Both the position numbers and the translations under genes were made by a program. 64,000 nucleotides of DNA, taken from Gammaproteobacteria bacterium (lineage in GTDB: Bacteria; Pseudomonadota; Gammaproteobacteria; Pseudomonadales; Halieaceae). Positions 36,633 to 41,411 of this stretch are shown here, piece after piece; the first letter of the stretch is position 1, and every line of letters begins with the position of its first letter. The DNA lies in contig JAACDF010000019.1 in the NCBI GenBank assembly GCA_009937065.1, positions 1 to 64,000 on the forward strand, read 5' to 3'. A model generated the notes under the pieces. That model did no database searches and was not told the DNA's origin. It was given only the letters and a program-made list of their open reading frames with translations.

Positions 36633-36665
36633 GGCTATTGCGCTTAATCGAAGAGCGCAATAGCC
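36633..36665. repeat. 11-bp perfect inverted repeat between ettA and radA 3' ends
   Basis: GGCTATTGCGC...GCGCAATAGCC with an 11-nt loop covers the radA stop region and the end of the ettA transcript. Its place between convergent genes suggests a bidirectional terminator, but neither side has a T run. Confidence 0.6.
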
Positions 36666-38011
36666 TCATCAAGTCGAGATACAGGCTGAACGGTAATGCC
36701 AGGTATGCTTGTTCGTGGCGCGTTTCCCTTGGGTACGATGGCACGCTTAAATCCGTGTTTTGCTGCTTCAGCAATACGCTCCTGACCACTGGCTACAGGT
36801 CGAATCTCCCCGGTCAAACCAACCTCGCCGAAGACCACAAGATCTTTTGGCAGAATCTTGTTTCGTAGACTGGAGACAACCGCAAGCAAAAGGGAAAGGT
36901 CACCACTGGTCTCGGCAATACGGACGCCACCGACCACATTGGCAAAAACGTCTTGATCACCCACATGCAATCCCACATGTCGGTGCAAAACGGCCAACAA
37001 CATCGCTAGTCGGTTCTGCTCAAAACCGACGGCAACGCGCCGCGGGTTGCCCAGATTACTCGCATCCACTAGGGCTTGGATTTCAACTAGTAACGGGCGG
37101 GTACCTTCCCAGACGACAACGACTACCGTGCCAGGCGCTGGAGTATCAGCTCGCTCTAGGAAAATGGCAGATGGATTGAGAACCTCTTTCAGGCCGCCAT
37201 CCGTCATCGCGAATACGCCCAGCTCATTGACGGCACCAAAACGATTCTTCTGACCCCGAAGCGTCCGGTAACGAGAATCCTGCTCGCCCTCCAAAAGCAC
37301 GGAGCAATCAATCATGTGCTCTAGGACTTTGGGGCCCGCCAAACTACCGTCCTTCGTCACATGGCCAACGAGAATTAATACGGTACCTGTCTGCTTTGCA
37401 TAGCGGGTTAGCAGCGCCGCGCAGTCCCGGACTTGCGCCACACTGCCCGGTGCCGATGTTAAGGCATCGCTATGCACCACCTGAATGGAATCTACCACCA
37501 TGATTTTTGGTTTGTGTTCATTGGCGGCGGAGAGAATGGCGTCCACGTCGGTTTCAGCCATGAGCTGCAACGAATCGGTTTCGAGTCCCAAGCGCTTGGC
37601 GCGCATGGCTATCTGCTGGGGTGACTCCTCTCCTGTGACATACAACGCAGGCGCTCGTGCTGCGAGAGCGCACAGTGTCTGCAATAACAATGTACTTTTG
37701 CCTGCTCCGGGGTTTCCGCCAATTAAGATGGCTGATCCAGGAACAAAACCGCCACCGAGAACACGATCTAGCTCGGCAAAGCCCGAGCCGAATCGGGGCA
37801 GATCAACCAGGTCAATTTCAGAGAGTTTTTGAACGCGGGCGGTTGTACCGGCAAATCCACCCCGCACTTTTTGCACGGACCCCGAATTACCACCAGGAAT
37901 CCGGACCTCGGATAACGTATTCCATGCGCTACAGGCCGAACACTGTCCCTGCCATTTTCGATAATCCGCACCGCAGTCGTTGCATACGAACGCTGACTTA
38001 GTTTTTGCCAT
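36644..38011 (-). CDS. radA: DNA repair protein RadA
   Basis: 455 residues. The N-terminal zinc finger is CNDCGADYRKWQGQCSAC (about 10-27). The RecA-like core has Walker A GGNPGAGKST and the RadA-specific KNRFG motif (GQKNRFGAVNELG). The C-terminal Lon-protease-like domain runs from about 290. It promotes branch migration and processing of recombination intermediates. It is divergent from the DnaT-like gene with a 41-nt gap. Confidence 0.98.
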   Translation of the reverse strand: MAKTKSAFVCNDCGADYRKWQGQCSACSAWNTLSEVRIPGGNSGSVQKVRGGFAGTTARVQKLSEIDLVDLPRFGSGFAELDRVLGGGFVPGSAILIGGNPGAGKSTLLLQTLCALAARAPALYVTGEESPQQIAMRAKRLGLETDSLQLMAETDVDAILSAANEHKPKIMVVDSIQVVHSDALTSAPGSVAQVRDCAALLTRYAKQTGTVLILVGHVTKDGSLAGPKVLEHMIDCSVLLEGEQDSRYRTLRGQKNRFGAVNELGVFAMTDGGLKEVLNPSAIFLERADTPAPGTVVVVVWEGTRPLLVEIQALVDASNLGNPRRVAVGFEQNRLAMLLAVLHRHVGLHVGDQDVFANVVGGVRIAETSGDLSLLLAVVSSLRNKILPKDLVVFGEVGLTGEIRPVASGQERIAEAAKHGFKRAIVPKGNAPRTSIPGITVQPVSRLDEAIALFD

Positions 38012-38052: not shown

Positions 38053-39105
38053 ATGCTATCAGACCAACAGTCACCGCTTGTATACATGTCCAACCCGCGA
38101 TTCATTCCAGAGCGTTATTGCACCTTCTCACCTCAGCTCGCGGCAACCGTGGGTTTAGAGGAAGCGGTTCTTTTGCAGGGGTTGAGTAACCAGCTGGCCT
38201 CAAATGCCAACACCATTTTGATCGCAGCACTAGCGGAGGAGTTTCCGTTTTGGAATCACGTGAGAATAGGTCAGTTGCTGCAGCGGATTGTCGACCTCGG
38301 AATACTTCATGCGCGGCCCAGTCATGATCCACTGGTTTGGCGGATCGTCGACAGACCCATTGAGGCAGCCCGTAAAAGAGCACCGGTACAGGCATGGGCG
38401 CCTAGCGAACATCTTATCGACCTACTCAACCTAAATCATGGGCTGACCCGAAGCTACATACTCGACCAGCTTAAGAGCTTTGAGCCGTCGGGTGATCGAA
38501 AGACCTTGGACACGCGCTTTCGCCATCACGTACTCTCCCACTGGCGGCAGCAACAAAAACATCCGGCCTTTGAGATTAAAGAACCCGCCCGTTTTGATAA
38601 CGCATGGCAGCCTAGTCTTGACGCCAAAGAGATTTTAGCCCGCACAGAAATGGCATCAGAGTTCATTGAATCTATTCGCCCAGAGTTCATCCTTTATTGG
38701 AAAGAGCGAGGCGGCGCCCCAAAAGACGTCAACAGTAAATTCATTCAGTTTGCGCGACAGCGCTGGGCACGACACGAAAACAGTCTCCAACACAGTACCG
38801 TACCCGAGCGTCTTAAGCCCGATTGGATACCGAATGCTGCAGTGTATGAGACGCTTCAGCTGTCGGGCATATCGCAAGACTTCGCCGACACTGTACTGCG
38901 AGAATTTACTGTCTATTGGGTAGACAGTAACGAAGTGCATACATCGTGGAACGCGAAGTTCTTGCAGCATGTAAAATACCAATGGCAACGCCAGCAGGAG
39001 CAGATGAGTGGCAGATCAGAAACAGGCGGCGGAACTGGCCCAGCAGATCGCACGAAAGACCGAAGCATCTCAGACGACCTCAGTGACACCAGCTGGGCAG
39101 GATGA
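38053..39105 (+). CDS. replication protein with winged-helix-like N-terminus and three DnaT-like repeats (DopC-like)
   Basis: 350 residues. Residues 20-100 look like a winged helix (LIAALAEEFPFWNHVRIGQLLQRIVDLGIL). Three copies of a DnaT-type single-strand-DNA-binding module follow at about 115-165, 185-240 and 257-314. Each has a W-x-P start, a central helix pair and an ending such as WNAKFLQHVKYQWQRQQ. The Gly/Asp-rich tail after 318 overlaps the next gene by 98 nt. With its lambda-P-like partner and dnaB nearby, it fits the phage-derived helicase-loading pair DopC/DopE proposed for bacteria lacking DnaC and DciA (recalled, not checked). Start ATG 38053 or 38086; neither has a strong Shine-Dalgarno. 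Confidence 0.82.
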   Translation: MLSDQQSPLVYMSNPRFIPERYCTFSPQLAATVGLEEAVLLQGLSNQLASNANTILIAALAEEFPFWNHVRIGQLLQRIVDLGILHARPSHDPLVWRIVDRPIEAARKRAPVQAWAPSEHLIDLLNLNHGLTRSYILDQLKSFEPSGDRKTLDTRFRHHVLSHWRQQQKHPAFEIKEPARFDNAWQPSLDAKEILARTEMASEFIESIRPEFILYWKERGGAPKDVNSKFIQFARQRWARHENSLQHSTVPERLKPDWIPNAAVYETLQLSGISQDFADTVLREFTVYWVDSNEVHTSWNAKFLQHVKYQWQRQQEQMSGRSETGGGTGPADRTKDRSISDDLSDTSWAG

Positions 39106-39688
39106 ACGTGTCGATCGCGACGACGGAAGCCTGGTCGAGGCCATCAATCAGGTCTTTGCTCTATTCCGGCTGAACTACCACAATCAATATTACGCTGCGT
39201 GGTCAGACGCGCAGCAACTGGGTCAAGTAAAGCGACTGTGGCTGGAGGCTCTGAGTGACTTTTCGGGCGAGCTTATACTCATGGGCGCGCGACGCGCGAT
39301 TGAGGCGAGTGATTATCTACCAACGCTGAATCGCATGCTGACCAGCTGCTCCGATGCGCTGAGCGAGCTTGGCCTACCTTCAGCAGCTAACGCCTACGAA
39401 GAGGCCTGCTTGGCGCCAAACCCTAAAGCTGAGGCAAGCTGGTCTCATCCCATTGTCTATCTCGCGGGCAGAGACGCCAGCTGGTACCTGCTAGCCAACC
39501 ATGCCAGAGGTGAAGCCTGGCCAGTTTTTCAAGGCCACTACAACCGCTGGCTTAAACGGGCATTACGTGGTGAAACGTTTACGATCCCAGAGCGAAAGCA
39601 ACTCGAGGCGCCGAACGAAGAGGCGAGCATGGATCTTAAAGACCGAAAAACAGCGCTTTCAGCGCTAAGAAAGGCGATGGGGCTCTGA
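39008..39688 (+). CDS. lambda replication protein P-like helicase loader (DopE-like)
   Basis: 226 residues. A GTG start with GGAG at 7-nt spacing lies inside the upstream gene in another frame. The domain order resembles phage lambda P: INQVFALFRLNYHNQYYAAW aligns with its INGVF helix, then the WLEAL region, a YLPTLNRML segment, and DASWYLLANHARGEAW followed by LKRALRGE. Lambda P binds DnaB and carries it to the origin. Here dnaB lies 340 nt away on the other strand. I infer a chromosomal helicase loader; the family match is by eye. Confidence 0.82.
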   Translation: MADQKQAAELAQQIARKTEASQTTSVTPAGQDERVDRDDGSLVEAINQVFALFRLNYHNQYYAAWSDAQQLGQVKRLWLEALSDFSGELILMGARRAIEASDYLPTLNRMLTSCSDALSELGLPSAANAYEEACLAPNPKAEASWSHPIVYLAGRDASWYLLANHARGEAWPVFQGHYNRWLKRALRGETFTIPERKQLEAPNEEASMDLKDRKTALSALRKAMGL

Positions 39689-40048
39689 CTACAACCCTTT
39701 GTCAGCCAGGTACCGCTCGAGCGACTCACGCTCCAATTGCAGAGCGCCAATCAAGCCTGGAGCTTGTGTCAGATCCCCCGTGGCCATCGCAGTTTGAAGC
39801 GACTTGGCTACATTTGAGAGTGGCATGGCCTGAGCATTACCGCAGGTACCTTTGAGACGGTGAGCCAGTGCGCGAATGGGCTCGGCATCACCGCTCGCCG
39901 CAAGATCTGCTAGAGCCGCAATATCACCCTCTATCTCCGCGCGAAACTTGCCGAGGATCATCTGCACCAATGCAGCATCGTCTCCCAGCATTTTTCCCAA
40001 TGCCACCAAGTCGATGGGGGGCAAATCGCTAGACTCCGTAATTTTCAT
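39689..40048 (-). CDS. Hpt (histidine phosphotransfer) domain protein
   Basis: 119 residues from MKITESSDLPPIDLVALGKM. The ATG lies inside the dnaB 3' end (20-nt overlap) with GGAG 5 nt upstream; the track start 62 codons earlier lies fully within dnaB and is rejected. A single Hpt domain carries the phosphoacceptor histidine in AHRLKGTCGNAQA at about 64. It would relay phosphate between a hybrid kinase and a response regulator, neither of which is encoded nearby. It abuts the lambda-P-like gene tail to tail with no spacer (39688/39689). Confidence 0.88.
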   Translation of the reverse strand: MKITESSDLPPIDLVALGKMLGDDAALVQMILGKFRAEIEGDIAALADLAASGDAEPIRALAHRLKGTCGNAQAMPLSNVAKSLQTAMATGDLTQAPGLIGALQLERESLERYLADKGL

Positions 40049-41411
40049 AGTCACTCCTAGCGAGGTTCTCGAATCGCGTGAACTGCCCCCGGAACGAGAG
40101 TCTGCAGGTACCAATAGGACCATTACGCTGCTTGCCAATAATGATTTCTGCCACACCTTGATCCGGTGAGTCTTCGTTATACACCTCGTCCCGGTAAATA
40201 AACATGATGACATCCGCGTCCTGCTCAATCGCACCGGATTCTCTCAAGTCGGAGTTAACAGGACGCTTGTTAGGTCGTTGCTCCAGCGCACGATTTAACT
40301 GTGACAAAGCAACTACCGGCACCCTAAACTCCTTGGCCAGTGCCTTCAGACTTCGCGAAATTTCCGAGATTTCGGCGGTTCTGCCCTCACTCGATCCAGC
40401 GACACGCATCAACTGGAGATAGTCGACCATAATCATCCCGAGATCGCCCTGCTCGCGCACCAAGCGACGGACTCTAGAGCGAAGTTCCGTAGGTGTTAGG
40501 GCCGGCGTGTCATCAATAAAAATTTGCGTGTCTTTCAGTTTCTCCGTAGCGCCCGATAGTTTTGGCCAATCATCCTGCTCGAGCTTGCCGGTTCGAACCC
40601 TTGATTGATCAATTCTGCCCAATGATGACAGCATTCTGATGACCAACTGCTCGGCGGGCATCTCCATGGAAAAAACCATGATGGGTCGGTCACTCGCCAG
40701 CGCCGCATTCTCCACAAGATTCATGGCGAATGAGGTCTTACCCATAGAAGGTCGTCCTGCAACGATGACCAAGTCGGAACCTTGCAAGCCTGAAGTCATA
40801 CGGTCCAGGTCAATGAATCCCGTGGTCAGACCAGTGATGTCTCCACCGGAATTGTAAAGCTCCTCAATTCGTTCAAGCGCGCCAGTCAATAGCGGAGCCA
40901 TGGCTTGAGGACCACCCTCTTTCTGACCGCCCTCGGAGATCTGCATGATGAGGCGCTCCGCCTCATCAACCAGCTCTTCGGAACTTCTGCCCTCAGGGTT
41001 AAAACCAGCTGATGCAATGTCTTGCGCCGCGTTAATAAGCTGCCTGAGCACCGAGCGCTCCCGTACAGCTTTCGCATAGGCTCTCACATTTGACGCCGTG
41101 GGCGTCTGCTCCGCGAGTTCAGCTATGTAAGTGTGGCCACCCGCTGCATCAAGCTCTCCCGTTGCTAAGAGACGATCGGCAACTGTAATGACATCAACCG
41201 GCTCACCTCGATCAACCAGGAGTGCAATCTGGCGAAAAATGGCACGGTGTTGGGGACGATAGAAATCTCCGGCAGCCACCACCTCGGCGACGCCATCCCA
41301 ACTATCAGAGGAAATGAGGAGTGCACCCAGGACTGAGCGCTCTGCCTCAATCGACTGCGGCTGCAGCTTTATTTTTGCGACATCCCAATCGGGATTTGAT
41401 GCTGTCTCCAT
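40029..41411 (-). CDS. dnaB: replicative DNA helicase
   Basis: 460 residues. The N-terminal primase-interacting domain spans about 15-120, then the linker, and a RecA-like motor with Walker A AGRPSMGKTSFAMN, Walker B IMVDYLQLM and the C-terminal REQDADVIMFIYRDEVY-like segment. The hexamer unwinds DNA at the fork. It follows rplI as in most gammaproteobacteria and runs into the Hpt gene with a 20-nt overlap. Candidate loader genes lie just beyond. Confidence 0.99.
   Translation of the reverse strand: METASNPDWDVAKIKLQPQSIEAERSVLGALLISSDSWDGVAEVVAAGDFYRPQHRAIFRQIALLVDRGEPVDVITVADRLLATGELDAAGGHTYIAELAEQTPTASNVRAYAKAVRERSVLRQLINAAQDIASAGFNPEGRSSEELVDEAERLIMQISEGGQKEGGPQAMAPLLTGALERIEELYNSGGDITGLTTGFIDLDRMTSGLQGSDLVIVAGRPSMGKTSFAMNLVENAALASDRPIMVFSMEMPAEQLVIRMLSSLGRIDQSRVRTGKLEQDDWPKLSGATEKLKDTQIFIDDTPALTPTELRSRVRRLVREQGDLGMIMVDYLQLMRVAGSSEGRTAEISEISRSLKALAKEFRVPVVALSQLNRALEQRPNKRPVNSDLRESGAIEQDADVIMFIYRDEVYNEDSPDQGVAEIIIGKQRNGPIGTCRLSFRGQFTRFENLARSDYENYGV

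Follow-up and report, generated by a model that had tools for sequence, protein, structure and literature searches.

Known helicase loaders and the DopC/DopE type

Loading of the replicative helicase is a task that all cells face. The names DopC and DopE reportedly go back to Brezellec et al. in 2017; we know of no test of the function of these domesticated phage parts in the group and, to our knowledge, there is no structure of an O-type initiator handing a helicase loader to DNA. Cellvibrionales was described in 2016 as an order with neither dciA nor dnaC/I in its members; it was left open there whether they had acquired another loader, and DciA was reported to be essential for initiation (PMC5109545). 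DopE and DciA both appear among the known loader families in a 2026 publication (PMC13326638).

We analyzed a 64,000-nucleotide stretch of a Gammaproteobacteria bacterium genome (contig JAACDF010000019.1; hereafter the window) that carries a pair of genes comparable to several described systems. Lambda O and P share with it the gene order (O-P), a second protein to which DopE is homologous in sequence and modeled fold, and a tail that reads NTDW in O and DTSW in DopC; unlike DopC, lambda O has no DnaT domains and a dissimilar body, and unlike the phage genes, dopC and dopE are chromosomal and vertically inherited. Escherichia phage vB_EcoP_ZX5 encodes a "primosomal protein I" and a P protein (L235) that resemble DopC and DopE in the DnaT domain, the NNTDW tail and the overlap with the P gene, but this initiator is phage-borne and has one DnaT domain instead of three. 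E. coli DnaT shares its DNA-binding domain with DopC (PF17948; PDB 6aeq, 4ou6) but has a single copy of it, another N-terminus, no D-x-[ST]-W tail and a different partner, DnaC; DopC, with its predicted winged helix, three domains and no DnaC-like gene found in the 91.7% complete genome, is not an E. coli-type whole-protein DnaT orthologue. The B. subtilis co-loaders DnaD and DnaB, built as DDBH1-DDBH2 and DDBH1-(DDBH2)2 (PMC3290774), are like DopC in having an N-terminal domain followed by one or more DNA-binding domains, but they work with the AAA+ loader DnaI, whereas the partner of DopC is a lambda P-type protein. In a comparison of 18 DopC proteins with the PHROG family "DnaD-like helicase loader," 14 gave a match; the DnaD/DnaB Pfam families give no match to DopC.

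We take the pair in the window to be of the DopC/DopE type, with the same order lacking DciA and DnaC, the same layout and a lambda P-type second gene. This assignment, made by order, layout and second gene, is most likely correct; no feature was shown to set the window pair apart from DopC/DopE. To this type we add the tail motif, the range of DnaT domain counts and examples from outside the order, some of which the original description of DopC/DopE may already contain.

Gene order around dopC and dopE

A first-pass annotation of the window had placed proteins of 350 and 226 residues next to dnaB, and both reading frames exist. The dopC-like gene (38053..39105, forward strand; 350 aa) encodes a winged helix, three DnaT domains and a C-terminal tail; its start is probably the ATG at 38086, giving 339 aa, because relatives begin to align with the product at about that point. 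The dopE-like gene, for a lambda P family helicase loader of 226 aa, follows on the same strand (39008..39688), and the two frames overlap by 98 nt (39008..39105, forward strand). Divergent to dopC lies radA (36644..38011, reverse strand), the most conserved neighbor, and convergent with dopE lies the replicative helicase gene dnaB (40029..41411, reverse strand), its end 340 nt from the dopE stop, in agreement with the distance first given. That gap is filled by a gene for an Hpt-domain protein (39689-40048, reverse strand; PF01627, 7.5e-12), which is on the same strand as dnaB, overlaps the dnaB end by about 20 nt and abuts the dopE stop; its product is possibly a phosphorelay partner co-expressed with dnaB. 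Host genes flank the dopC/dopE locus.

DopE as a lambda P homologue

DopE matches Phage_lambda_P (PF06992) at 5.2e-8 (33.3 bits; Pfam cut-off, 26) and phrog_109, "P-like helicase loader," at 1.1e-20. The DopE family profile finds the lambda P of a DnaB complex (8v9t) at 2e-7, and hhalign aligns the family with lambda P at 1.7e-7; a single-sequence phmmer search of DopE against the PDB gave no match, and alignments are needed for detection. The structure model is all-helical (mean pLDDT, 88), and its fold matches that of lambda P bound to DnaB in 9oa1 (E, 4e-4; probability, 1.00). Family profiles and modeled fold thus both make DopE a homologue of lambda P, as the first-pass annotation had proposed, and the structural match on which that proposal had been staked is present. 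Because PF06992 alone misses many DopE proteins and, when whole genomes were scanned, failed to pick up even the one in the window, DopE was surveyed with a family alignment (A1).

A second type of DopE carries a C-terminal extension (about 265 aa) and is paired with a DopC that has a single DnaT domain along with the winged helix (L022, L034, L036, L040, L045, and L157). These extended-DopE loci belong to families of the same order without a DciA match, and in the stretches read radA is not next to them. Three members of a family with large genomes (G032, G090, and G114) each hold between four and nine copies of the lambda P family, which suggests that they harbor many lambdoid prophages in addition to their resident DopE.

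Domain structure of DopC

A winged-helix-like N-terminus had been read from the DopC sequence, and AlphaFold2 predicts one with high confidence at about residues 20 to 100 (the domain as delimited here, about residues 18 to 100, spans 38104..38352, forward strand). Its secondary structure runs H-H-E-H-H-E-E, with pLDDT mostly 80 to 94, and its profile is conserved among relatives. The three DnaT-like repeats that had also been noted were recovered by PF17948, which matches the whole protein at 5.6e-43 and gives three single-domain matches on the forward strand: a degenerate domain 1 (38392-38565; 1.6e-5, 26.3 bits), about five residues short of its counterparts in relatives, domain 2 (38596-38787; 2.4e-15) and domain 3 (38812-39006; 1.0e-22). 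These are the only PF17948 matches in the genome, and they match solved DnaT structures (PDB 6aeq and 4ou6). The C-terminus is disordered and ends in DLSDTSWAG. A single-sequence phmmer search of DopC against the PDB gave no match, and Foldseek with the full-length model returned nothing at E ≤ 0.001, only winged-helix-like and DnaT matches of low significance.

Three DnaT modules in one chain had been thought unusual, but they prove to be the norm in the group: of 80 named loci, 78 have three, and the remaining two have four domains and a single domain, respectively. Four domains also occur elsewhere in the order (L043 and L049). At other loci, one or two weak DnaT domains are found and a winged helix is not recognizable (L050 to L052, L144 to L146, L158, L032, and L038). 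The array thus varies from one to four domains, so one can be enough, and since some lineages also lack the winged helix, neither a fixed DnaT number nor that helix is strictly needed. The single-domain case among the named loci, gamma proteobacterium NOR5-3 (L128, 5298-6077), has a short DopC with its tail intact in a family where three domains are the rule, and is a natural deletion inside the DnaT array.

DopE and DciA across the order

No match to DciA (PF05258) was found in this genome, which is 91.7% complete, and neither DopC nor DopE matches that family. The sole IstB/DnaC-family match in the genome is a 480-residue protein with a DnaA sequence, and a DnaC-like loader was not found by this search of the 91.7% complete assembly. 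The search for dciA and dnaC that had been suggested at first pass thus came out in line with a different loader. PriA is present; PriB, PriC and a separate DnaT gene were not found in the 91.7% of the genome available. Because of this incompleteness, we judged the absences mainly by an order-wide survey. The best named relatives are mostly Halieaceae (e.g., Luminiphilus, Chromatocurvus, and Haliea), placed in Cellvibrionales.

The same 246 genomes of the order were surveyed for DopE (alignment A1) and for DciA. DopE was found in 157, DciA in 75 and both in only 2, against 47.9 co-occurrences expected if the two were independent (kinship ignored), and 16 had neither at the thresholds used. By family, 27 have DopE only, 15 have DciA only and 1 has both. 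The two genomes with both (G055 and G131) belong to one otherwise DciA-bearing family; their DopE proteins look like prophage genes, because the matches are weak and no DnaT-domain partner was found beside the DopE of G055. DopE and DciA are complementary and replace each other across the order.

Conservation and inheritance of the locus

Among 80 named relatives, radA lies beside the pair in 70 and dnaB lies within 4.3 kb in 57, and the synteny of the pair with radA and dnaB extends across many families. The first-pass proposal of a DopC/DopE-type pair in its native context is upheld by this position beside radA and dnaB throughout the family. At loci with radA, DopC and DopE distances track RadA and DnaB distances (Spearman, 0.82 to 0.87), and outside the overlap dN/dS has a median of 0.15 for DopE and 0.18 for DopC, compared with 0.09 for RadA. 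In two genomes of one genus (G223 and G241), dopC and dopE lie apart and both are retained.

These patterns bear on whether the pair could be a prophage remnant that came to lie beside dnaB by chance and has no role in host replication. Both proteins do have phage relatives, as such a remnant would, but the neighbors are host genes, the position is conserved over many genera with vertical inheritance and purifying selection, and dopC and dopE are retained together even where they are unlinked; we regard a remnant as extremely improbable.

Two loci of one genus (L248 and L249) have dopC unlinked from dopE, and in L248 dopC is still near radA. An apparent loss of dopC in two genomes (L048 and L057) was rejected, as dopC sits elsewhere in the genome.

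Proposed function

We consider it highly probable that the locus is a resident, vertically inherited DopC/DopE pair that does what DciA or DnaC does elsewhere, presumably by loading the helicase. From the fold match, DopE would bind the DnaB ring and open it, as lambda P does. DopC would be a phage-type initiator that holds DNA with its winged helix and its DnaT array; the DNA in question is probably single-stranded and lies at oriC, once DnaA has opened it, and at stalled forks that PriA has marked. The disordered C-terminus of DopC, with D-x-[ST]-W at its end, may dock on DopE and so bring DopE-DnaB to the DNA held by DopC, much as lambda O does for lambda P. Helicase loading, the DNA targets, tail docking and the role with PriA are steps that we infer. 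The group would then load its helicase with domesticated phage parts, and the locus holds a full set of them: DopE, which is like lambda P; DopC, which binds DNA and whose DnaT domains vary in number; and the short tail shared with phage initiators.

A narrower role is conceivable, in which the pair serves only PriA-dependent restart, like the E. coli PriA-PriB-DnaT-DnaC system, and loading at oriC is left to DnaA alone or to an unknown factor. The DnaT domains of DopC fit such a role, as does a genome with PriA in which searches found neither PriB nor PriC nor a separate DnaT. Restart alone is nevertheless unlikely, since genomes of the order carry DopE in place of DciA or the reverse and DciA is reported to be essential for initiation (PMC5109545), and since lambda O and P act at an origin.

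A conserved tail shared with phage initiators

The D-T-S-W tail of DopC (residues 345 to 348; 39085..39096, forward strand) is a candidate DopE-docking motif. D345, S347 and W348 are invariant (alignment A2), and D-x-[ST]-W lies inside the last 22 residues of DopC at all 80 named loci, as D-x-[SD]-W in 77 and D-T-T-W in three. Outside the tail, no similarity between DopC and lambda O could be detected, yet lambda O ends in LTNTDWIYGVDL, with an NTDW motif; the O protein of phage PAJU2 ends in NDTSWAVGLEQDLF, and the phage ZX5 initiator, with one DnaT domain, has an NNTDWIEG tail and a gene that overlaps the P gene. When proteins whose genes lie immediately upstream of a P-like gene were clustered, 7 of 50 had D-x-[STD]-W in their last 25 residues, compared with 0 of 597 other ORFs of the same loci (p, 1e-8); the motif is short, and only a minority of phage initiators carry it. 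In lambda, P binding is ascribed to the COOH-terminal region of O, and an O amber allele of which 294 of 299 residues are made is inactive (PMC6022878); the last five O residues, directly after NTDWI, are therefore essential.

In the window, the tail codons overlap the dopE codons for T-P-A-G, and DopE has a conserved T-x-A-G there, so the conservation could stem from either frame, and the tail might be a by-product of conserved DopE codons and no docking motif at all. Where the genes do not overlap (L032 and L038), however, DopC retains its tail and it is the T-x-A-G of DopE that is lost; where dopC is far from dopE (L248 and L249), DopC still ends in ITDRSWAD; and in lambda the O and P genes share just 4 nt. 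Because the tail is kept in non-overlapping and unlinked genes, it is not a by-product of overlapping frames, an explanation to which we give very little credence. As a docking motif, the shared tail could explain how O-type initiators pass a helicase loader to DNA.

Occurrence outside the order and in phages

Phage intermediates with a DnaT domain exist; they were located only via the neighbors of P genes, and a tblastn search of DopC against the phage collection gave no match. Among 377 genomes drawn from the class, DopE was found at E ≤ 1e-20 in seven besides the window's own. Three of them (G385, G468, and G535; loci L139, L140, and L141), outside the order and with genomes of 1.2 to 1.3 Mb, have a DopC with two or three DnaT domains beside DopE and no match to DciA; DciA may have been replaced there independently, or the pairs may have arrived by transfer. 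A broader reading, which we hold only tentatively and at slightly less than even chances, is that the tail is the motif by which O originally docked on P in lambdoid phages and that it survived domestication, while the part of the initiator that binds DNA was swapped, from the lambda O body to DnaT arrays, and that the pair also took the place of DciA in a second lineage of the class, one with small genomes. Three further genomes (G310, G313, and G588) have both DopE and DciA and look like prophage carriers.
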